From Elusimicrobia bacterium HGW-Elusimicrobia-1 (GTDB lineage Bacteria > Elusimicrobiota > Endomicrobiia > PHAN01): 64,000 nucleotides of DNA. Location of the stretch: contig PHAN01000005.1 in assembly GCA_002841695.1 (NCBI GenBank), positions 1 through 64,000 on the forward strand, written 5' to 3'. Positions within the stretch are counted from its first letter, which is position 1; each line of letters starts with the position of its first letter. Both the position numbers and the translations under genes were made by a program. Shown here in pieces: positions 771-50,139 of the stretch. The notes under the pieces are model-generated. The model was not told the origin of the DNA, did not search any database, and saw nothing but the letters and a program-made list of their open reading frames with translations.

Positions 771-882
771 GGCCATTTCGGCAACCCGGCGAACAAATGT
801 CACGGCGATTTCATTGCGTCGTGATTTAGTCCCGTGGCTTTGCGTCCCACCCTTTCGGCGTGGTTTGCCTTTGTCGCTGACT
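771..882 (-). promoter_or_regulatory. cyclic-di-GMP-I (GEMM-I) riboswitch aptamer
   Basis: The minus-strand RNA contains the GEMM-I signature in order: GGCAAACCAC, a GCCGAAAG loop, GUGGGACGCAAAGCCAC, GGACUAAA, a variable P2 hairpin, and CGCCGGGUUGCCGAAAUGG. These correspond to the conserved P1b/P1a strands, the tetraloop and the tetraloop receptor of the Vc2-type aptamer. It sits about 145 nt upstream of the start of the repeat protein at 625. The expression platform (626-770) has no terminator I can call with certainty. Class assignment is strong; whether ligand turns the gene on or off is not visible. Confidence 0.9.
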
Positions 883-16838: not shown

Positions 16839-18227
16839 TCATTTTAATTTTTTGCCGCACTCGGTACAAAACTTTGCATCCGATGAAGTGAGTTTGGAAC
16901 AGAAAGGGCATTTTTTCTGCTTTGATTCCTCACCTGTTTTCTGTTGCGATGCGCCGGTATTCTCTTTAATCTTTCCTGATTTCTGCGCATTCTCAAATGC
17001 TTCTTCTGACCAGATAAGTTTTCCGGTTTTGTCAATATAATTCATTTTTTTGTTTTTGAAAACCTGAGCCAGCCCATTAGAAAATGAATTAACCCCATCA
17101 TATGTTGGTGTAACAACATATTTTCCCGTATTATCTATGAAACCCCATTTGCCGCCTACCTTTACAACTGCAAAACCTTCACTAAAACTTTGCGCTTCAT
17201 CAAACTGGGCAGGAATGACAATTTTCCCGGTTTTGTCTATAAACCCCCATTTGCCGCCTACCATTACAGCTGCAAGACCTTCTTTAAAAATCCATGGCTT
17301 ATTAAAATCCACCAATTTATCAAACTGGGCGGGGATGACAATTTCCCCGGTTTTGTCTATAAACCCCAAACTTTTACTTTTTTCATCCCAGACGGCTGCC
17401 AGTCCATCAGAGAAGTGGTTTGCCATATGGTATTTACCGGGAATAGTTTTACCCTCTTGATCTATATATTGACTTGTATATTTGCCTTTCCATCTAATTT
17501 CAAAACCACCGGAAAACGGTATGTAGTTAGAAGGAACACTTATTGGCATATCACCAAGTTTTACTTTTACTTTTCCGCTTGTATCAATAGCATTCCATCC
17601 ACTGGAATCATGCACCAGTGCCGACCCTTTTGAAAATCTTGTCACTTTGTCAAATTGCGGTTTGATTACCATTGTGCCTGTTTTATCTACGAATCCCCAA
17701 AGTTTGTCGGTTGTTCTCACAGCCGCTAATCCTTGTGAAAATGGCCAAACTGATTCATACACGGGATTGATAATAATTTTCCCTGTATTATCAATAAACC
17801 CCCCTTTTGTGGCAAGCATTACCTCCGCCATTCCTTCGCTAAAATCTTCACATCGATCGAACTGTCCCGGCGGAATAACCACTTTTCCTTTTTCGTTAAT
17901 ATAACCCATATTGACTAAAACATCTTGAATCTCCCCTTTCCACGCATATTTATACTCAGCATACCACAGAATTTCTGTTATTGCCGCGGTGCTGGTGATA
18001 ACTTTACCTTCTGGAAGTATTCCCACGCGGGCAAACCCGTCAGAAAATGGGTAGGCATAATAAAACTGCGGAGTTACAACCACTTTGCCTGATTGGTCAA
18101 TATAACCCCATTTATCACTTTGACGAATTAGAAACAAAGACCCTTGCTCAGCAGCCCCGAAACCACAAATCCCTGCCAGCAACAGGCCGACCAGACCCAA
18201 CTTCGCTAAAACTTTCCCTTTATTCAT
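16839..18227 (-). CDS. secreted WG-repeat protein with C-terminal zinc ribbon
   Basis: About 462 residues from ATG 18227, fixed by GGAGG 5 nt upstream and a good signal peptide (KVLAKLGLVGLLLAGICGFG). The body is about nine WG (KWG) repeats, such as GKWGFIDKTGKIVIPAQFDE, covering residues about 30-410. The C-terminus has CPFCSKLTSSDAKFCTECG, a zinc ribbon matching those of the neighbouring small proteins. WG-repeat proteins are common cell-surface or periplasmic proteins of unknown role. A longer frame begins at 18275, overlapping the stop of the small ribbon gene as ATGA, so the genes are probably coupled. Confidence 0.85.
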   Translation of the reverse strand: MNKGKVLAKLGLVGLLLAGICGFGAAEQGSLFLIRQSDKWGYIDQSGKVVVTPQFYYAYPFSDGFARVGILPEGKVITSTAAITEILWYAEYKYAWKGEIQDVLVNMGYINEKGKVVIPPGQFDRCEDFSEGMAEVMLATKGGFIDNTGKIIINPVYESVWPFSQGLAAVRTTDKLWGFVDKTGTMVIKPQFDKVTRFSKGSALVHDSSGWNAIDTSGKVKVKLGDMPISVPSNYIPFSGGFEIRWKGKYTSQYIDQEGKTIPGKYHMANHFSDGLAAVWDEKSKSLGFIDKTGEIVIPAQFDKLVDFNKPWIFKEGLAAVMVGGKWGFIDKTGKIVIPAQFDEAQSFSEGFAVVKVGGKWGFIDNTGKYVVTPTYDGVNSFSNGLAQVFKNKKMNYIDKTGKLIWSEEAFENAQKSGKIKENTGASQQKTGEESKQKKCPFCSKLTSSDAKFCTECGKKLK

Positions 18228-18271
18228 ACCCGCCTCCTGTTTTATGCCTGATGTCTTGACTTGATTCAGGC

Positions 18272-18415
18272 TCATTTTAACTTATGACCGCACTCGGCGC
18301 AAAACCTTGCATCCGATTGAATGAAATTGGAACACGCAGGACATTTTTTTAAACTCATCCCATCCTGCGCCGCCATTACTTTAGACAAGATGTCCCCTGT
18401 TTTTCTTCCCTCCAT
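18272..18415 (-). CDS. 47-residue zinc-ribbon protein
   Basis: I read this small gene directly: ATG 18415 to TGA 18272. The product has a short amphipathic N-terminus (GDILSKVMAAQDG) followed by CPACSNFIQSDARFCAECG, a complete double-CxxC ribbon of the same pattern as the ribbons in the two genes downstream. It has no signal peptide, so it is probably cytosolic, unlike its neighbours. It lies 16 bp after the TPR-CHAT gene, in the same operon. Confidence 0.7.
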   Translation of the reverse strand: MEGRKTGDILSKVMAAQDGMSLKKCPACSNFIQSDARFCAECGHKLK

Positions 18416-40003: not shown

Positions 40004-40903
40004 TCAGCGCGGAAAATACATAGTGATCGAGATTAAATGGCTGTTCCCGAGGATTTTATTCAGTCCGAAAGAATAATTGATACCGAAATTTTTCACTCTT
40101 GACCCGACGCCGAAAGACAATCCCTCCACGTCGGAGTTAAACTTATAGCCGCATCTCAACGCGGCGATGTTTTTCAAGGCATATTCCACGCCTACCGACG
40201 GAACGACTACTTTATCGAAGATCAAATAACTCGCGTCGGTTATTACGAAGTAATTCTCGAACTGATAGCGTCCCGATAACCTTGCGGAAGCCGGCAGGGG
40301 GTCTCCCTCCGAGATGTATTTTAACGGAGTACCGATATTGAGAAACGATAATCCACAAGTTACGGGCGCATTCTCAAACGAATAAAGGGCGCCGAAATCT
40401 GCGGCGATGGCGGTAGCGGTTTTATATTCGACGAGCGTGGACGAGACATATTTGAGCGTCGCGCCGGCGTTTATCTCTCTTCCGCAAAATGATAATTTTC
40501 GTCCGTAAGAAACTCCGAGCGCAAAGTTCCGCTCGGCCGACACGGTCTTTTCGTTCCATGCCGAGTCGAAAAACTCCAGCGAACCTGCGTCATAGTAATC
40601 CAGAGAAAACCCTGCCACTCCGGATTTAAACGGCATACCGCCCGTCACATTAGCGTGGGTGTCATCGGCGAAACCTTTGTTGTACATAACCGCAAGTTGC
40701 CGATGAGTAAGCGTGGAAAGCGAGCCGGGATTATACTTTACGCCCGACACATCGTCTTCTATCGCGCCGAAGGCGTCGCCGAGGGCGGCCGCTCTCGCCG
40801 ACGGCGGTCTCGTCAAAAAATACGCCGATGAAGCGCCAAAGAGCGGAGCGGCGAAAACGCCCCCGAATAAAACGGCCGCTACAACCGCCGGATATTTTTT
40901 CAT
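40004..40903 (-). CDS. PorV/UPF0164-type outer-membrane beta-barrel protein
   Basis: 299 residues from ATG 40903, whose ATGA overlaps the stop of the subtilase gene and which gives a good signal peptide (MKKYPAVVAAVLFGGVFAAP). The mature N-terminus ARAAALGDAFGAIEDDVSGV followed by NPGSLS is the signature of the PorV/UPF0164 family, and the rest shows alternating beta-strands ending in an aromatic residue (ISITMYFPR). Relatives are outer-membrane barrels; PorV works with the type IX secretion system in Bacteroidota. Pairing with a subtilase carrying a C-terminal FlgD-like domain suggests this barrel helps export or anchor it (inference). Confidence 0.88.
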   Translation of the reverse strand: MKKYPAVVAAVLFGGVFAAPLFGASSAYFLTRPPSARAAALGDAFGAIEDDVSGVKYNPGSLSTLTHRQLAVMYNKGFADDTHANVTGGMPFKSGVAGFSLDYYDAGSLEFFDSAWNEKTVSAERNFALGVSYGRKLSFCGREINAGATLKYVSSTLVEYKTATAIAADFGALYSFENAPVTCGLSFLNIGTPLKYISEGDPLPASARLSGRYQFENYFVITDASYLIFDKVVVPSVGVEYALKNIAALRCGYKFNSDVEGLSFGVGSRVKNFGINYSFGLNKILGNSHLISITMYFPR

Positions 40904-43806
40904 TTCATTACGCATATTTTTCGAGTCCTGTTCAATCCCGGGCCTTCCAACTTTATCACATATATCCCCGAAGCGACCGCCTCGCCGGAGTCGTTTCTCC
41001 CGTCCCAAATGAAACAATCCGAAACACCTCCCACGGCTTCTTTCGATATTGTCTTTACGAGGCGGCCGTTCGATGAGAATATTTTCACTTCGACGGATCC
41101 GGAGTTCTCCGCGTTGAAATTTATTTTGACTGCCCCGCCTGTCGCGGGATTGAAATAGCCCCTGTCTATTCCCTCGCCGCTGTAGCCCATCTTTACATTA
41201 CCCGGTTCCGTTAATACAAGCCCCTCGTCCCAAACATCGGGCGAGTCCGCTTCTACCGTGGGCGCGCCGCTCGCGCTTGCATTATGCACGTCGTATGCCT
41301 CAAAATAATGCGTGTACCCGCGCCACGGCGGCAATTTTGTCGCGTATTCATAGTTTCTGCCGGTGTTATAAGGCGTAGCATCATCGGAGGCATCCGACAT
41401 CGTAAAAGGGCTGCCGGAAATGTTGATTCCGCCTCTTTTTATATAGACATGGGGATAGCCACTTGCGGGGGCATCGTTGTTAGCGTCTGTGTATTTAACT
41501 CTGAATACGAATTCTGTACCGGGCCCGGCAATTGCGGGGCTGCACCCGGGCGTGATATAATTACCATCACCTGTCCATGATAATGTCGGAGCAACATTTA
41601 TTACAGGCGCAGCAATAGCGGCAGTTGGGTTTCCATTAGCAGAACTATTCCATACATCATATGCTTCAAAATAATATGTGTAGTCGGTTCCGGTAGAAAC
41701 TGTCGTTGAATATGTATATCCCCTGCCAGAAGAATATGCATTACTGTCGGATGCAGTCATCGTGAACGGACTGCCGGAAATGTTGACTCCGCCTCTTTTT
41801 ATATAGACCTTGGGATAGCCGCTTAAAGGTGCATCGTTATCTGCGTCTGTGTATTTTACACGGTAAGTAAATGTTGTTGAAGTATCACCCGTTTCAAGGT
41901 GTAAACCGTCAGAAACATAATTTGTCTCGCCTGTCCATGATAATGTCGGAGGAAAATTGTAAAGTGATTTATAAGCATTTACTCTGCCGCCTGTAACCAC
42001 TTTGCCGGATAATGATGCCTTGGTATCCACACCGTTTAATATTAATGCTTTTAACTGTTCAACTGACAGGTCAGATTTTTTTGCCAGTAAAAGCCCTGCA
42101 ATTCCAGCCACATGAGGAGCGGCCATAGATGTGCCGTCATTATAAACATAATCGTAAGAAGCGACGGACATCGGCTCTCGGGTAATATTAAAATCATCTA
42201 TATATACTCCGTCAAACGTGCCTGAATAATCAGAATAAAGCCCGAAACCGAAATAATTTCCGCGCTCAACCAAAGAAGTTATCGTTGAACCTATAAACGC
42301 AAAACTTCCACCTGACGAGCCGGTTAGATAACCAAACCAAGACCAGCTTGTTTTATCAACCGAATACATCAACGATAAAGCATCATATCCATTTTCAAGT
42401 TCGTATCTTACTTTGAAATTAAGCATGTACCTGCTGTTTTTAACATAGGTAAAGGTGGAATTGTAACATACCCAAGAGTTCGTGTTATTTACATAATTCC
42501 CGCCGGGGCTATCTGTCAAACTGTTCGGTGCGGAAGCGGATACCGAGTTGGTTATTGCCCAACTGCTGTTTGTGCCGCCTCTCACCCACCCTGAAGGGAC
42601 CTGCCCGACGGTATCGGAATCAAAATTTTTGGAATACAACGTAGTCGGCGCTCCATAACTGTAAGTCGGGATAGTACTGTAGATATTTACGCCCGGCGCG
42701 GCTACGTCCACGCTTGTCGCGCCGTAATTCGAAAAACTCGCCAAGGCATCGTTTTGGTCCGTGGCAGCCACGGAAATGATGCAACCGAGATTATAACTGG
42801 CGGGATACGAGGGTTTTGTATCATTGTTATTCGCCTCATTGCCCGCTGCGGCCACAAACAAAACCCCGGCAGCGCCCGCCGACTGAATCGCCTGATAAAG
42901 CAAGTCGCCGTTAGAACCGCCGTAACCGGCCCAACTCGCGTTGATAATTCTCGCGCCTTTCGCCGCCGCATAATTTATCGACTGTATGATTTTATCGTCG
43001 GTTGCGAACGCCTCCACACCGCTGATTTTAAGCGGCATCAGTTTTATGTTCCAACACACTCCGGTTATTCCCGAACCGTTATTCCCGACCGCGCCTATTG
43101 TGCCTGCCACATGCGTGCCGTGGGTATAAAACCCGGTCGGGTCGTTGTCGCCGTCAAAAAAATCCCAACCGCGAACATCGTCCACAAGTCCGTTACCGTC
43201 GTCGTCAACGCCATTGCCGGCAATCTCTCCGGGATTTACCCATATATTGGCGGCAAGATCGGGGTGATTTATCGCAACGCCCGTATCTATCACGGCGACG
43301 ATTACAGTATTTGAGCCGGTTACAATGTCCCATGCCTCGGGAGCGTCTATGTCGGCGTCGGAAGTGCCTGAAACACCGTTCACGCTTTGGCCGGTGTTAT
43401 GAAGCCCCCAGAGTTGTCCGAAATGTGTATCATTGGGAGTAGCATTGAAATAACGGATATAATTCGGCTGGGCGTACTCGACGTTCGGATTCTTTTTTAA
43501 TTCTTCAATCGTTTCTTCGACGGTGGTGTTCTTCTTGATTTTGATTTTGCGCGCTTTCTTGTCTTTTTTGTTCGATACGAAAAAAGCGTCCACCTCGCGC
43601 ATATCCTTTGATGAATGGAAAGATTTTATTTGACCCTCGCCCATATGGGATTTGTAGATGACGATTACTTCGTCGGGCGCATATAACGGACGCTCGGACT
43701 TAAAGTCGCGCTGAGTTTTTTGCTGGGCGTTTCCCGTACGCAAAGAAACTACGCATATAAGAGAAATCGTTAATCCGATAATAAATAATCTGTTTTTTAT
43801 TCCCAT
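40900..43806 (-). CDS. secreted S8 (subtilisin-like) serine protease with FlgD-like C-terminus
   Basis: 968 residues: signal peptide (about 1-27), an inhibitor-like propeptide (YAPDEVIVIYKSH ... NPNVEYAQPNY), then the S8 domain with all three catalytic residues: Asp in VIAVIDTGVAINHPDL, His in THGTHVAGTIGAVG, Ser in NDGTSMAAPHVAGI. A beta-sandwich insert lies before the Ser motif. Two Ig-like repeats (SGYPKVYIKRGGVNISGSPF and SGYPHVYIKRGGINISGSPF) and an FlgD-like C-terminal domain (IFSSNGRLVKT ... GEAVASGIYVIKLEG) follow. It is an extracellular protease. A ~500-nt leader with two structured elements and terminators controls it. Confidence 0.95.
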   Translation of the reverse strand: MGIKNRLFIIGLTISLICVVSLRTGNAQQKTQRDFKSERPLYAPDEVIVIYKSHMGEGQIKSFHSSKDMREVDAFFVSNKKDKKARKIKIKKNTTVEETIEELKKNPNVEYAQPNYIRYFNATPNDTHFGQLWGLHNTGQSVNGVSGTSDADIDAPEAWDIVTGSNTVIVAVIDTGVAINHPDLAANIWVNPGEIAGNGVDDDGNGLVDDVRGWDFFDGDNDPTGFYTHGTHVAGTIGAVGNNGSGITGVCWNIKLMPLKISGVEAFATDDKIIQSINYAAAKGARIINASWAGYGGSNGDLLYQAIQSAGAAGVLFVAAAGNEANNNDTKPSYPASYNLGCIISVAATDQNDALASFSNYGATSVDVAAPGVNIYSTIPTYSYGAPTTLYSKNFDSDTVGQVPSGWVRGGTNSSWAITNSVSASAPNSLTDSPGGNYVNNTNSWVCYNSTFTYVKNSRYMLNFKVRYELENGYDALSLMYSVDKTSWSWFGYLTGSSGGSFAFIGSTITSLVERGNYFGFGLYSDYSGTFDGVYIDDFNITREPMSVASYDYVYNDGTSMAAPHVAGIAGLLLAKKSDLSVEQLKALILNGVDTKASLSGKVVTGGRVNAYKSLYNFPPTLSWTGETNYVSDGLHLETGDTSTTFTYRVKYTDADNDAPLSGYPKVYIKRGGVNISGSPFTMTASDSNAYSSGRGYTYSTTVSTGTDYTYYFEAYDVWNSSANGNPTAAIAAPVINVAPTLSWTGDGNYITPGCSPAIAGPGTEFVFRVKYTDANNDAPASGYPHVYIKRGGINISGSPFTMSDASDDATPYNTGRNYEYATKLPPWRGYTHYFEAYDVHNASASGAPTVEADSPDVWDEGLVLTEPGNVKMGYSGEGIDRGYFNPATGGAVKINFNAENSGSVEVKIFSSNGRLVKTISKEAVGGVSDCFIWDGRNDSGEAVASGIYVIKLEGPGLNRTRKICVMK

Positions 43807-43870
43807 GATTTTGGTCCGCCATTACGGCATTCGCACCGTTTTTCAACAGCGTCTGCGTAAAATAAAAAAA

Positions 43871-43916
43871 CCGGATTGCGCGCGAGTCGCTCGTGACAAA
43901 TGTCGCGCCAATCCGG
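43871..43916 (-). terminator. intrinsic terminator in the subtilase leader (proximal)
   Basis: On the minus strand CCGGATTGGCGCG pairs with CGCGCAATCCGG and is followed by TTTTTTTA (43870-43863). It lies 57 bp ahead of the start codon, so it would stop transcription before the gene. Its loop contains CACGAGCGACTC, the same 9-mer as in the upstream element. Confidence 0.85.
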
Positions 43917-43967
43917 TCGATTGCCGGAGGCAAAAAACGGTATGCCCTTGTTTCTGATTTATGTTTT

Positions 43968-44032
43968 CCATAGTCGCTCGTGGAAACGCCGCCGCAATTC
44001 TTTTTTAAGATTTTGCGGCTCGCTTCCTATGG
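43968..44032 (-). promoter_or_regulatory. structured RNA element, copy 1 (unassigned riboswitch-like)
   Basis: Minus-strand RNA folds as P1 CCAUAG/CUAUGG, P2 GAAGCG/CGUUUC, and P3 CCGCAA/UUGCGG with a long loop. Between P2 and P1 on the 3' side is CACGAGCGA. Copy 2 at 44182 has the same layout with compensatory stem changes and the same ACGAGCGACUAU. It is followed by the terminator at 43871. I compared it from memory with the common riboswitch classes and found no match. Confidence 0.6.
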
Positions 44033-44102
44033 ATGTTTAAGTTAACTTATCGTCGAAAAACCTGTTTTGTCCCCGCTGTATCCTTTGCCCGGCCAAAAAA
44101 AG

Positions 44103-44161
44103 AGCCAGGCGACATATTCATCCGAATACGAGCGACCGAATTGGAAGAATAGCGCCTGGCT
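44103..44161 (-). terminator. intrinsic terminator in the subtilase leader (distal)
   Basis: On the minus strand AGCCAGGCGCTATTC pairs with GAATATGTCGCCTGGCT and is followed by CTTTTTTT. The hairpin loop holds GTCGCTCGT, the exact complement of ACGAGCGAC in element copy 2 just upstream, suggesting mutually exclusive pairing. Confidence 0.85.
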
Positions 44162-44181
44162 AAATGAAAGACAGACACTAT

Positions 44182-44235
44182 CCCTATAGTCGCTCGTATG
44201 TAAGCGTGCGATTGGGGGCGCATCGCTTATATGGG
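44182..44235 (-). promoter_or_regulatory. structured RNA element, copy 2 (unassigned riboswitch-like)
   Basis: Minus-strand RNA: P1 CCCAUA/UAUAGGG, P2 UAAGCG/CGCUUA (perfect), P3 UGCG/CGCA, then CAUACGAGCGAC before P1 closes. Shared with copy 1: the order of helices, AAGCGA at P2, and ACGAGCGACUAU at the P1 junction. Stem sequences differ while pairing is kept, which is evidence for a conserved fold. Confidence 0.6.
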
Positions 44236-44314
44236 ATGTGTTATTTCCGCTTCGTCCGTTTTCCGCCCGGGATTTTATTCTCCCCGACGGGCCTCGGCGA
44301 AGAGGTCCGAAGCA

Positions 44315-44343
44315 ATGATACAAGTTTTCGTTTTTCAAGTCAA
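44315..44343 (-). promoter_or_regulatory. sigma-70 promoter of the subtilase leader
   Basis: Minus strand TTGACT (44343-44338), 17-bp spacer, TATCAT (44320-44315). The predicted start near 44308 gives a leader of about 500 nt to ATG 43806, containing both structured elements and both terminators. Confidence 0.7.
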
Positions 44344-44405: not shown

Positions 44406-45056
44406 TCACTTGCCGACGGATTTATCGTCATTTCCGCCGATATTTTCTTTTCCCGCCTCTTTGAACGCCTCGTCCAACTTCTTCGCAAAGCCCTCGCAAC
44501 GCTGCTCAAGAACGCAGAGCGGCGTCTCCTCAAAAAGTTCAAGAACAAAAAAAATCGTGTCGCGCCATAAGTTCTTCGGAATCTTTGAGAGATTCACGGC
44601 CGCATTGTCCATCCAAGAAACACAGCCCGAAGGGCTCGCAAGCCCGAGATGATCCATTATCTTTTTGCATTCGCTCTGCCCCTTGTTGAGACGGTCGGCG
44701 AGGATTATTTTCCGTATCGACTCCGCTGCACAAATGCCGGGACACGCAACGAGCATCGGCGCGACGGATTGAACCACAAGGTCGAGATTGAGCCGGACGC
44801 TTTCTGCGACGACGCCCTCTTGCGATATATATTTGTCGCAAAGTCGAATCAGCGTCCTGGCCGGGATTTTGCGAAGATGCTCGTCTTTGATGACTTCTAT
44901 CGGATGTCCGGGAGTGGAACAACTTGAAGCCGCCCAAAATAGCATGACAAGGCAGTCCGCGTCCTTTGCTATTTTCGGGTTGTCCAGCATAATGTCGAGC
45001 GCCTGCTCGATTATCTGTTTCTCGTCGGCTCGCGAGTTTTTTTCTTTGTCGGTCAT
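44406..45056 (-). CDS. element-borne protein of unknown function
   Basis: 216 residues from ATG 45056, fixed by GGAGG 7 nt upstream. The protein is predominantly helical with a charged N-terminus and contains Cys-rich spots (SSCSTPGH, CPGICAAE, ETPLCVLEQRC) that do not form a standard zinc motif. No signal peptide. It is the left-most gene of the mobile element and follows the SbcD-like gene in the same direction. Confidence 0.6.
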   Translation of the reverse strand: MTDKEKNSRADEKQIIEQALDIMLDNPKIAKDADCLVMLFWAASSCSTPGHPIEVIKDEHLRKIPARTLIRLCDKYISQEGVVAESVRLNLDLVVQSVAPMLVACPGICAAESIRKIILADRLNKGQSECKKIMDHLGLASPSGCVSWMDNAAVNLSKIPKNLWRDTIFFVLELFEETPLCVLEQRCEGFAKKLDEAFKEAGKENIGGNDDKSVGK

Positions 45057-45160
45057 TTTTTTCCTCCGATACTTTTGCCCCCGCGGCGGCGGGGTAGCGA
45101 CCGCGAGGGCTTGGGATTTTCCGTCGGAGAGTTTCAATCGTTTTCTCCGGCGCGGATAGA

Positions 45161-46869: not shown

Positions 46870-47634
46870 TCAGAAAGCCGCTCTCAAATATGCGAGCGCT
46901 TTGATTCCGATTTTCCGCACGCTTCCTCTCGGAATACGGAGCGACTCCGCCACTTCCGAAAAAGACCTCGGGCCGGATGCGGCGAATTCTCCGACGCCAA
47001 AGCGCATCTCGACGATTTTTTTGGCGCGCGGATGAATCGCGCCGTCGGCCTTCGCCAAAACCTTGAGAATATTGGCCGCTTTGAGTTCGCCTTTCCACCG
47101 CTCCGTCGGAGAATCGAAAAGCGCGTCTTCGAAGCAAACGCATTTTTCGCCGCCGTCATTATCCACGCCGTCGCCGCACGCCGTCATAGCCGAGAACGGG
47201 ACTTCGGGGCGGATATCAAGCGGCTCGGTGGTTCTGCCGAGGGCAGCGTCGCGTTCCTTATTTTTCTGATGCTGCGCGACGAGTTTCTTGCCGGCCAGGC
47301 GGCCTACCGACAACTGCGCGTAAAACTCTTTCTCGACGTAACTCTTGATGTAGTTCCACGCCCACGCCGCGAACGGCACGCCCTTGGCGGCGTCGTAACT
47401 GCGCATCGCCAGAAGTAAACCCCTGTTACCGTCCTGCACAAGATCCATAACGTCGATGCCGTATCGTCCGGCGTTGCGCCGCCACTTCCGGACGACAGAG
47501 CAAACAAGCCGCTGGTAACTCCTTGCAACTTTTTCCTCGCCGTCGGGATGGCCGCTTGATAAAATCTCCGCCACATCGGCGGACGAAATCTGCGGGGCGT
47601 TCGACGCCGCCGCGAAATACTTTTTAAAATCCAT
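46870..47634 (-). CDS. element-encoded sigma-70 family factor
   Basis: 254 residues. Region 2 is visible as YGIDVMDLVQDGNRGLLLAM then YDAAKGVPFAAWAWNYIKSY; region 4 as KIVEMRFGVGE followed by SFSEVAESLRIPRGSVRKIG. The region between is Gly/Asp-rich and short. This is not an ECF factor; it resembles a reduced group 2-4 sigma. AGGAGGCAGCA precedes ATG 47634. A long hairpin with T-run lies immediately upstream, so its expression is probably attenuated. It likely directs transcription of element genes (inference). Confidence 0.85.
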   Translation of the reverse strand: MDFKKYFAAASNAPQISSADVAEILSSGHPDGEEKVARSYQRLVCSVVRKWRRNAGRYGIDVMDLVQDGNRGLLLAMRSYDAAKGVPFAAWAWNYIKSYVEKEFYAQLSVGRLAGKKLVAQHQKNKERDAALGRTTEPLDIRPEVPFSAMTACGDGVDNDGGEKCVCFEDALFDSPTERWKGELKAANILKVLAKADGAIHPRAKKIVEMRFGVGEFAASGPRSFSEVAESLRIPRGSVRKIGIKALAYLRAAF

Positions 47635-47985: not shown

Positions 47986-48009
47986 AAATACCCCCACACC
48001 CCACTTTTT

Positions 48010-48222
48010 ACTGCGTAAAGCGAACACCCCCCAAAACCACCAAGGCGGTTTTTAAGCCTCTTTCTCGTCGGAAAACACCTCCAATTTTATGGGATTTTTG
48101 CCATCAAAAGAACCTCCTGATCTTTTGATGGCAAACCCCCAAATAACGCTGTATTTGAGGGTTTGCCGGATTTGGTGGGATTTTACTGCGTAAACCGAAC
48201 AAAATAACTGCGTAAAGCGAAC
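48010..48222. repeat. three direct repeats ACTGCGTAAAGCGAAC
   Basis: Copies at 48010-48025, 48185-48200 (one mismatch) and 48207-48222, the last two 22 bp apart, just downstream of the tyrosine recombinase gene and around the two hairpins. They could be recombinase arm sites, replication iterons, or promoter elements for the element's own sigma factor. The sequence alone does not decide. Confidence 0.7.
48097..48135 (-). promoter_or_regulatory. hairpin with ribosome-binding site in loop and start codon in stem
   Basis: A perfect 15-bp stem, TTTGCCATCAAAAGA / TCTTTTGATGGCAAA. On the minus strand the loop holds TCAGGAGGT and the 3' arm contains ATG (48104) of a five-codon frame (Met-Ala-Lys-Ile-Pro-stop). 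A second 14-bp hairpin, CAAACCCCCAAATA / TATTTGAGGGTTTG, adjoins at 48132-48165. The arrangement could control translation by masking the start. Confidence 0.5.
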
Positions 48223-48234
48223 GAAAAAACGCGT

Positions 48235-50139
48235 TTATTTGCGATTTTTCTCGTAAAAATGCTCTACCAATTCGTCCGGTTCAAAGAAATGAAGCTTGCC
48301 TATCTTGGTGGATTTTACCATCCCCTTTTGAACCAAACCGGGGATGGTGGTGGGCACTTTTTCTTTATACCCGAAAGCAACGGATGCTTTTCGGGAATCG
48401 ACAAGAGCATTGATGCGGTCTATCTCTTCTTTGAGATACACGATTTTTTTGTTCGACCGCGCCATGGGCGTGACCAGCCCCATATGCTCGAGTGTCCTCA
48501 TCCTCTCGTAGGTCTGAGTTCTGCCGATTCCCCATTTATCCATTACTTCGCGGTAGGTATAGCATTGCGCAGCCGGCACGCAGTCCACACAATTCGCCCT
48601 GATCGCTTTTTCAATTTCCGTGATTGCGACGCCTAACGGTTCGCTGTCGAACCGTTTTTCGCCCCGAACGGAATTGATAACAATCTCGATTATCGTCCGC
48701 AATATCGCGGATTTGGGCAACGCTTCCGACCTCATAGCGCGGCTATCTTTGTCCAAGCCGTATAATTTTTCCACCGCCTCGATTCTCTTGGAGGCATTGC
48801 TGTGGAAATATCTCCACGTCTCGTCCAAGTCGGCATGACGGGCGTTCTCGTGAACCTTTTCAAATGCCATTCCTTCGTCAACCCAATGAGTGATCCGTGA
48901 ATGACGGATGATATGCGTCTTATATCCCTTGGGCAGAGATATCCCGGCCTTTTTCAATTGCCTCGAGAAGATATGGCTATACGATGCCGGCGAGAGCGGT
49001 TTGCCCGTTTTGGAAAAAAATATGGGATGATATTCGCGCCCATTTACCGTTATCACAGGCGGAACGATACCCTTTGCCGCACAGTATTCCTGCGATATCT
49101 TTTTCCAACGGTATAAATCCGCATCCAATCTGTTCAATGGGATGTAGATCCTGTCTTCATGTTGATCGGGGCGACTTTTTCCGCCGCGCACTACCACGGG
49201 CCCCACATTCGCTTTGGATCTTTCATGCGCGGGCAAATCTTCCCAACAAAGATAAACCGTGTCTTCGCTCCGCAAGGCCGGCTCATACTGGGTCGAGACC
49301 ATGGCATTATCCCTGATTTGCTCAAATCTTTTCGCCAGTTTCATACTCTCACAACTATCGACGCCGACTGTCCTGAGTTTTTCGACCTGCTCTTTCGTCA
49401 GACAAAACTCGCGCTTCGCGGTTTTATACTTTTCGATGGCGAGCCCTTGGAATATGTTGCCGCCGAGTTTCCTCTGCCTCAGACCCATCTTGAAGACGCG
49501 CCGCAAATTTATTAAAATCGCGGCGATGGCATTCGGGCTTATTTTACGGGAAGTAAACGGACTCGCGCCGGTCTTTACGAGAATGTCGCAGAATTTCTGC
49601 GCGTCGTCACCCGTAAAATCCGACAGCGCGCTCACCGACCTCGCGGGCTCGTTTTTAACCACAAAGTCCCGGAATGCTTCAAAACTGCGCAGTATCTGTC
49701 TCTGCGATTGTTTCTTTATTTTCGAGCCGGTCGTGCGAACGACATGCGCCGCAAGGATATCTTCTATCTCATGCGCCATTTGCGGCGGCAGCGCCGCGAG
49801 TCCTTGTCGTTCTTTTTGGATGATGCACGAGGGCGGAAACGCATCCGGCGACAAAGCCGCGCCGAAACGACAAAAACTGTTCCAAGCGGTCAACGGCCAG
49901 ATATTTCTGTCCGACCAGCCGAACTTTTTCCACAGATTTTTCATCATTTCCCTATCGATGGAACCGATATCGTAGTCCGTCTCGCACAATATCCGCTCCA
50001 CGGCGCTGCGATAATTAACCACACGCTTACCCGCGTTGCCCTTCGCCCACTTTTCCACGACTTCCTTCATGTTTCGCGCATAGTCCGAGTTGCGCAAAAG
50101 ATTTTCCGTCGATACGGCTGCTTGCTGTTGCTGGTACAT
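48235..50139 (-). CDS. tyrosine recombinase with C-terminal DNA-binding extension
   Basis: 634 residues. A core-binding N-terminal region (with NYRSAVERILCETDYDI) precedes a catalytic domain with Arg in YEPALRSEDTVYLCWED, Lys in VRGGKSRPDQHED, His-x-x-Arg in THIIRHSRITHW, His in ENARHADLDET and Tyr in WRYFHSN. About 200 more residues follow, holding two helix-turn-helix-like stretches (YREVMDKWGIGRTQTYERMR and a MerR-like KVPTTIPGLVQKGMVKSTKI). All catalytic residues are present. It presumably acts on the element DNA (resolution, inversion or integration) in addition to the serine integrase. Confidence 0.88.
   Translation of the reverse strand: MYQQQQAAVSTENLLRNSDYARNMKEVVEKWAKGNAGKRVVNYRSAVERILCETDYDIGSIDREMMKNLWKKFGWSDRNIWPLTAWNSFCRFGAALSPDAFPPSCIIQKERQGLAALPPQMAHEIEDILAAHVVRTTGSKIKKQSQRQILRSFEAFRDFVVKNEPARSVSALSDFTGDDAQKFCDILVKTGASPFTSRKISPNAIAAILINLRRVFKMGLRQRKLGGNIFQGLAIEKYKTAKREFCLTKEQVEKLRTVGVDSCESMKLAKRFEQIRDNAMVSTQYEPALRSEDTVYLCWEDLPAHERSKANVGPVVVRGGKSRPDQHEDRIYIPLNRLDADLYRWKKISQEYCAAKGIVPPVITVNGREYHPIFFSKTGKPLSPASYSHIFSRQLKKAGISLPKGYKTHIIRHSRITHWVDEGMAFEKVHENARHADLDETWRYFHSNASKRIEAVEKLYGLDKDSRAMRSEALPKSAILRTIIEIVINSVRGEKRFDSEPLGVAITEIEKAIRANCVDCVPAAQCYTYREVMDKWGIGRTQTYERMRTLEHMGLVTPMARSNKKIVYLKEEIDRINALVDSRKASVAFGYKEKVPTTIPGLVQKGMVKSTKIGKLHFFEPDELVEHFYEKNRK

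Follow-up and report, generated by a model that had tools for sequence, protein, structure and literature searches.

We propose, with a probability of roughly 55 per cent, that the minus-strand leader of a secreted subtilase gene in the window (the whole stretch of 64,000 nucleotides analyzed here) is a tandem riboswitch-like, cis-acting transcription attenuator that matches no catalogued class, and in which unit 1 works as an OFF switch. By computation, the leader has two folds, mutual exclusion in unit 1 between states of nearly equal energy, terminators, and no match to a known class. We infer the nature of the effector (a small molecule or an ion), the direction of control, and the sensing of the same thing by both units. 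The narrower reading, that the leader represents a new riboswitch class, found so far at one locus in one genome as a tandem pair controlling a secreted protease, with unit 1 as an OFF switch and P1 and ACGAGCGAC as the switching strand, is tentative and falls somewhat short of even odds; the architecture speaks well for a riboswitch, with no phylogenetic support beside it.

The locus and its two related elements

The leader lies in a gap of ~600 nt between an uncharacterized gene (44406-45137) and the subtilase gene (Table 1). It is ~500 nt long and contains, in order, a promoter, unit 1, and unit 2; in each unit, a folded element comes first and an intrinsic terminator after it. The promoter that the original prediction called good does match the sigma-70 consensus at 10 of 12 positions, but about one site of that quality is expected per shuffled region. 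A transcript from it would start near 44308. No promoter is evident in the sequence between T2 and the subtilase ATG (43806), so any transcript begun at the upstream promoter has to get past both terminators, and readthrough of T2 must somehow occur if that promoter drives the subtilase. By eye, no ATG with a ribosome-binding site is found between 44308 and copy 1; there is an ATG in the motif region of copy 2 but not in that of copy 1.

The subtilase combines a Fervidolysin-like prodomain, a Peptidase_S8 domain, and a FlgD_ig or T9SS-type C-terminal tail. Together with the PorV/PorQ-family gene that follows it, whose true start is probably nearer 40908, it fits a secreted protease operon, which gives no pointer to a ligand.

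Table 1. Features of the leader and of the two genes behind it (window coordinates).
Feature	Position	Strand	Details
Sigma-70-like promoter	44315..44343	-	TTGACT-17-TATCAT; consensus match only
Copy 1	44175..44241	-	P1 ACACAUCCC-AUA / UAU-GGGAU-GUGU; P2 UAAGCG/CGCUUA; bulged A; P3 UGCG/CGCA; ACGAGCGAC in 3' bulge
Antiterminator 1	44127..44198	-	UACGAGCGACU...GGGAUAGUGUCUG paired with CAGGCGCUAUUCUU...GGUCGCUCGUA; -34.2 kcal/mol alone; pair probability ~0.97 in unit 1
Terminator T1	44095..44160	-	GCCAGGCG...CGCCUGGC, then UCUUUUUUU; -26.2 kcal/mol; loop contains GTCGCTCGT
Copy 2	43967..44033	-	P1 UCCAUA/UAUGGA; P2 GGAAGCG/CGUUUCC; A/GG internal loop; P3 GCCGCAA/UUGCGGC; ACGAGCGAC in 3' bulge
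Weak hairpin, possible antiterminator 2	43907..43931	-	GCCUCCGG.../CCGGAUUGGC; overlaps 5' arm of T2; -10.3 kcal/mol versus -25.2 for T2
Terminator T2	43859..43916	-	CCGGAUUG...CAAUCCGG, then UUUUUUUAUUUU; loop repeats CACGAGCGACU at 43895-43885; pair probability >0.99
Secreted subtilase, 968 aa	40900..43806	-	Pfam PF00082 (3.4e-56), PF22148, PF13860; TIGR04183 above cut-off
PorV/PorQ-family outer-membrane protein	40004..41017	-	Gene after subtilase; NF033709, 155 bits (cut-off 90)

Both copies present CAUCC, AUA, AAGCGA, CGYUU, and ACGAGCGACUAU in the same order. On the 5' side, P1 runs almost directly into P2; on the 3' side, ACGAGCGAC bulges out between P2 and P1. The copies have P3 and outer P2 pairs of different sequence and length, with pairing kept, and the whole motif-to-motif spans differ as well (43 versus 56 nt). 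The predicted combination of a conserved AAGCGA with different, still-paired stems is thus confirmed in both copies by sequence and by fold. The three-helix layout described originally is likewise the same in both, but it is better put as P1 with a single bulged hairpin, P2-P3.

Within the leader, AAGCGA is confined to 44228 and 44025, and ACGAGCGACTAT occurs twice in the 64-kb window (0.21 occurrences expected with at most one mismatch). ACGAGCGAC starts at 44197, 43981, and 43894, the last of these in the loop of T2, and its exact complement, GTCGCTCGT, lies in the loop of T1 at 44136-44128, so that the claim of a complementary distal loop and a motif-repeating proximal one holds exactly. 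When the window is cut into 636 overlapping segments of 453 nt, 16 of them contain some non-trivial 9-mer three times.

As evidence for an element the repeat alone is weak, since a 12-nt direct repeat appears in 55 of 5000 dinucleotide shuffles (~1 per cent), and the folds are stronger. With the nine motif bases forced to be unpaired, copy 1 folds at -21.1 kcal/mol and copy 2 at -28.3 kcal/mol (its energy ranging from -27.5 to that value), and none of 4000 flank shuffles is as low in either case. Left unconstrained, copy 1 favors by 1 kcal/mol an alternative pairing in which the motif is partly paired. The fold of unit 1 (-53.0 kcal/mol) lies below all 1000 of its shuffles (-32.9 +/- 3.6 kcal/mol), as does that of unit 2 (-64.6 kcal/mol) below all 500 (-45.0 +/- 4.1 kcal/mol). 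Two related structured elements, each with a terminator, are borne out as predicted. Plain local alignment of the two units reaches only p ~0.02-0.05, and a covariance model of copy 2 alone scores copy 1 at 12.5 bits (rank 7 in the window); together with the weakness of the repeat, this means that the kinship of the copies rests on motif order and fold, not on overall similarity. The folds around the same bulge, the differing yet paired P3 and outer P2, and the differing spacing fit an RNA element rather than a DNA operator.

Competing folds in unit 1 and the terminator of unit 2

The minimum-energy fold of unit 1 is the antiterminator and not the aptamer plus terminator. Specifically, the antiterminator state lies at -53.0 kcal/mol, the state with T1 forced at -50.4 kcal/mol, and T1 together with the consensus aptamer at -49.4 kcal/mol; the pair probability of T1 without ligand is 0.027. 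Antiterminator 1 draws on the copy 1 motif, the 3' strand of P1, and the 5' arm and loop of T1: the partner of UACGAGCGACU is GGUCGCUCGUA in the T1 loop, and AGGGAUAGUGUCUG (from the 3' strand of P1 onward) pairs with CAGGCGCUAUUCUU (from the 5' arm of T1 onward). In the same minimum-energy fold, the P1 5' strand CAUCC pairs with GGAUG beyond the loop. Because they share strands, the aptamer-like fold and antiterminator 1 are mutually exclusive, as expected of a transcription-terminating riboswitch of any class. In folds of growing length, P1 closes the copy 1 region first and is displaced by the antiterminator at ~102-120 nt, once the 5' arm and loop of T1 have emerged. The T1 hairpin is trailed by TCTTTTTTT, plain in the sequence; a simple terminator scan misses both T1 and T2 because their loops are long.

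These predicted folds suggest that unit 1 is built like an OFF switch acting by transcription attenuation. Nascent unit 1 RNA would first fold the P1/P2-P3 element with ACGAGCGAC in its 3' bulge. With nothing holding that fold, the antiterminator would capture the motif strand and the 3' strand of P1, and RNA polymerase would read through. A ligand holding the bulge and P1 together would leave the 5' arm and loop of T1 free, T1 would form, and transcription would stop; a binding energy of 3-4 kcal/mol on the aptamer side would presumably suffice for the flip. Unit 1 would then be a genetic OFF switch over the secreted subtilase and PorV-family operon, and unit 2 would repeat the sensor and terminator.

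That unit 1 is balanced within 3-4 kcal/mol would also suit attenuation by RNA alone, with no ligand. Under such a scheme the leader would respond to transcription speed, temperature, or ions, or T1 would release a short RNA whose exposed loop, GGUCGCUCGU, finds its partner in the ACGAGCGAC of copy 2 or of T2, and the T1 loop is indeed perfectly complementary to the three motif copies. In the read-through state, however, that loop is already paired within antiterminator 1, and the additional conserved AAGCGA and P1 identities are left unexplained, so we consider this explanation unlikely.

Unit 2 behaves differently from the ligand-controlled attenuator that we propose for unit 1. T2 (-25.2 kcal/mol, followed by TTTTTTTATTTT) is plain in the sequence and does not overlap copy 2, which is a more stable hairpin than copy 1, and the best fold contains T2 and copy 2 together. 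Shortly before T2 is complete, its 3' arm can pair with the motif, and P1 goes down to ~0.39. This pairing and the hairpin at 43907-43931, which could act only kinetically, hint weakly at a kinetic switch; the unit 2 folds contain no clear ligand-controlled switch comparable to that of unit 1. The original prediction of a tandem attenuating riboswitch is accordingly supported in unit 1, where an antiterminator on the conserved strand excludes the aptamer-like fold, but not to a comparable degree in unit 2.

Searches for a known class and for further copies

The expectation that the element belongs to no known class was upheld. Against Rfam 15, the leader (43864-44310) matches no class at gathering score or at E<=10, the only matches being chance ones to vault and microRNA families below gathering. 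The covariance models of c-di-GMP-I and c-di-GMP-I-GGC (RF01051 and RF03167) find nothing in 43864-44310 at E<=10, whereas c-di-GMP-I-type members elsewhere in this genome score 43-61 bits; the models of HMP-PP, T-box, TPP, SAM, and all other Rfam 15 families also have no match in the leader.

The original prediction had named the lack of covariation and of further copies in relatives as evidence against a conserved aptamer. No further copies turned up in the genomes searched, and covariation between the two copies is no stronger than in shuffled controls. Only three base pairs are changed on both sides between the two copies, and 70 of 500 shuffles do as well. We built one covariance model (R1) from both copies, trimmed and aligned by hand, which score 51 and 49 bits by construction, and another (R2) from copy 2 only. 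Within this genome R1 detects the two copies alone, and it detects no copy in another 340 genomes of the phylum; over 341 phylum genomes, R2 raises its own copy alone above noise. The best matches elsewhere were rejected: one of 20.1 bits (genome G029) lies inside an aquaporin-like reading region without the motif in place, and one of 24.2 bits (genome G021; E = 0.005 per genome) is expected over 341 genomes and likewise lacks the motif in place. Among 84,980 species genomes, the exact motif pattern occurs in 78 places, none with the fold; an estimated couple of hundred exact-pattern matches are expected by chance, which makes the scan too loose to inform on anything beyond exact copies. Viral contigs (four patterns) gave only chance matches, none of them folding, and blastn against plasmids and phages gave only chance matches. 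A genus-mate (G001) has neither the element nor a close subtilase. With no homolog outside this one leader in any of these searches, the aptamer has no comparative support.

A subtilase paralog with 59 per cent identity, on contig C3 of the same genome, lies after a small lipoprotein-like gene and lacks a leader of this kind. This, the frequency of a 12-nt repeat in shuffles, and the failure of the copies to find each other by the single-sequence model are what would be seen if two ordinary strong terminators simply insulated the subtilase from upstream transcription, the repeated motif being a remnant of local duplication and nothing being regulated. We regard such insulation as unlikely: it leaves unexplained both the strong antiterminator of unit 1 and the recurrence of the same fold around the motif in the two copies, and it leaves the subtilase with no evident promoter past T2.

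Confinement to one genome would fit a leader site specific to one protein. A regulator that binds RNA, which might be autogenous or an antiterminator protein, could recognize the ACGAGCGAC bulge and stabilize the terminator-compatible fold, with the third motif copy, in the T2 loop, as an extra binding site. That copy (43894) has neither AAGCGA nor P3 and is easier to understand as a site for a protein or a short RNA than as a third aptamer, and the conserved bases (~20) are few for a metabolite pocket. Against this, no candidate binding protein was identified, and a single-strand binder would not need the conserved AAGCGA and P3 geometry. Additionally, other ACGAGCGACT sites in the genome (five as the 10-mer) carry no such hairpin, and at least four of the five are inside long open frames, which argues against a regulon-wide site. 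We therefore treat a protein-dependent attenuator as possible but doubtful.

Parallels with known tandem riboswitches

Same-class riboswitches in tandem, with one terminator apiece, form a known 'pseudo-cooperative' type, of which c-di-GMP-I is the commonest (PMC9481103). The leader resembles tandem c-di-GMP-I (GEMM-I) riboswitches in having two complete units, one after the other and separated by an intrinsic terminator, before the gene of a surface or secreted protein, but it has neither the GEMM sequence nor the GEMM fold. The tandem arrangement is thus a known one, and the putative sensor in it fits no known class.

Five c-di-GMP-I-type matches occur in the genome (C5:776-878, which is in the window, C11:61160, C11:61460, C11:19838, and C7:52823). 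On contig C11, a tandem pair with a terminator-like stem between its members precedes the gene for a short, FlgD-tailed secreted protein, and the same pair is present in the genus-mate G001 (contig C319); secretion and the FlgD-type tail of the proteins behind these pairs were read by eye from their sequences. Tandem c-di-GMP-I pairs in this genome and in a genus-mate indicate that the tandem layout is normal for the genus. The tandem pairs at loci L124 (361-811) and L125 (288-748), before a short FlgD-tailed protein, are conserved between two species of the genus, and in each of them RF01051 describes the second element better than the GGC variant does. The match within the window (776-878, minus strand) scores 60.6 bits as a c-di-GMP-I-GGC riboswitch (RF03167) and lies upstream of a gene that runs off the window start and whose product looks secreted.

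Other systems share single traits with the leader. Tandem TPP riboswitches and other same-class doublets also repeat aptamer plus terminator before one gene (PMC9481103), but their classes have many genomic copies, whereas the leader element has one locus. As in the HMP-PP (thiS) riboswitch with its terminator-embedded aptamer (PMC6478431), conserved bases lie inside a terminator hairpin, here ACGAGCGACU in the T2 loop; unlike that riboswitch, the leader has no Rfam match, and T2 is a plain hairpin without AAGCGA and P3. A choice between terminator and antiterminator in a 5' leader is also made by T-box and leader-peptide attenuators, but the leader has no T-box match in Rfam and, by eye, no convincing leader peptide with a ribosome site.

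Reviews predict that thousands of very rare riboswitch classes are still undiscovered (PMC10043782). Such classes would probably escape comparative methods that depend on many copies; a tandem pair in one leader provides its own internal comparison, so leaders of this kind could reveal single-locus classes. Should the element bind a ligand, it would link a signal to the secretion of a T9SS-type protease, in a little-studied lineage where similar genes are also served by riboswitches of the c-di-GMP-I type.

Three further features of the window were recorded. A small sigma-70-family factor (46870-47634, minus strand; TIGR02937, 58 bits) is encoded between the leader locus and a recombinase gene. 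Three 21-nt direct repeats, TTTTACTGCGTAAAGCGAACA, at 48006-48223, just past the 3' end of the tyrosine-recombinase-like gene (48235-50139, minus strand), are possibly binding or recombination sites. The gene at 16839-18275 (minus strand) contains internal direct repeats of 52-72 nt with a period of ~100-120 nt, near 17000-17370, and probably encodes a repeat protein.
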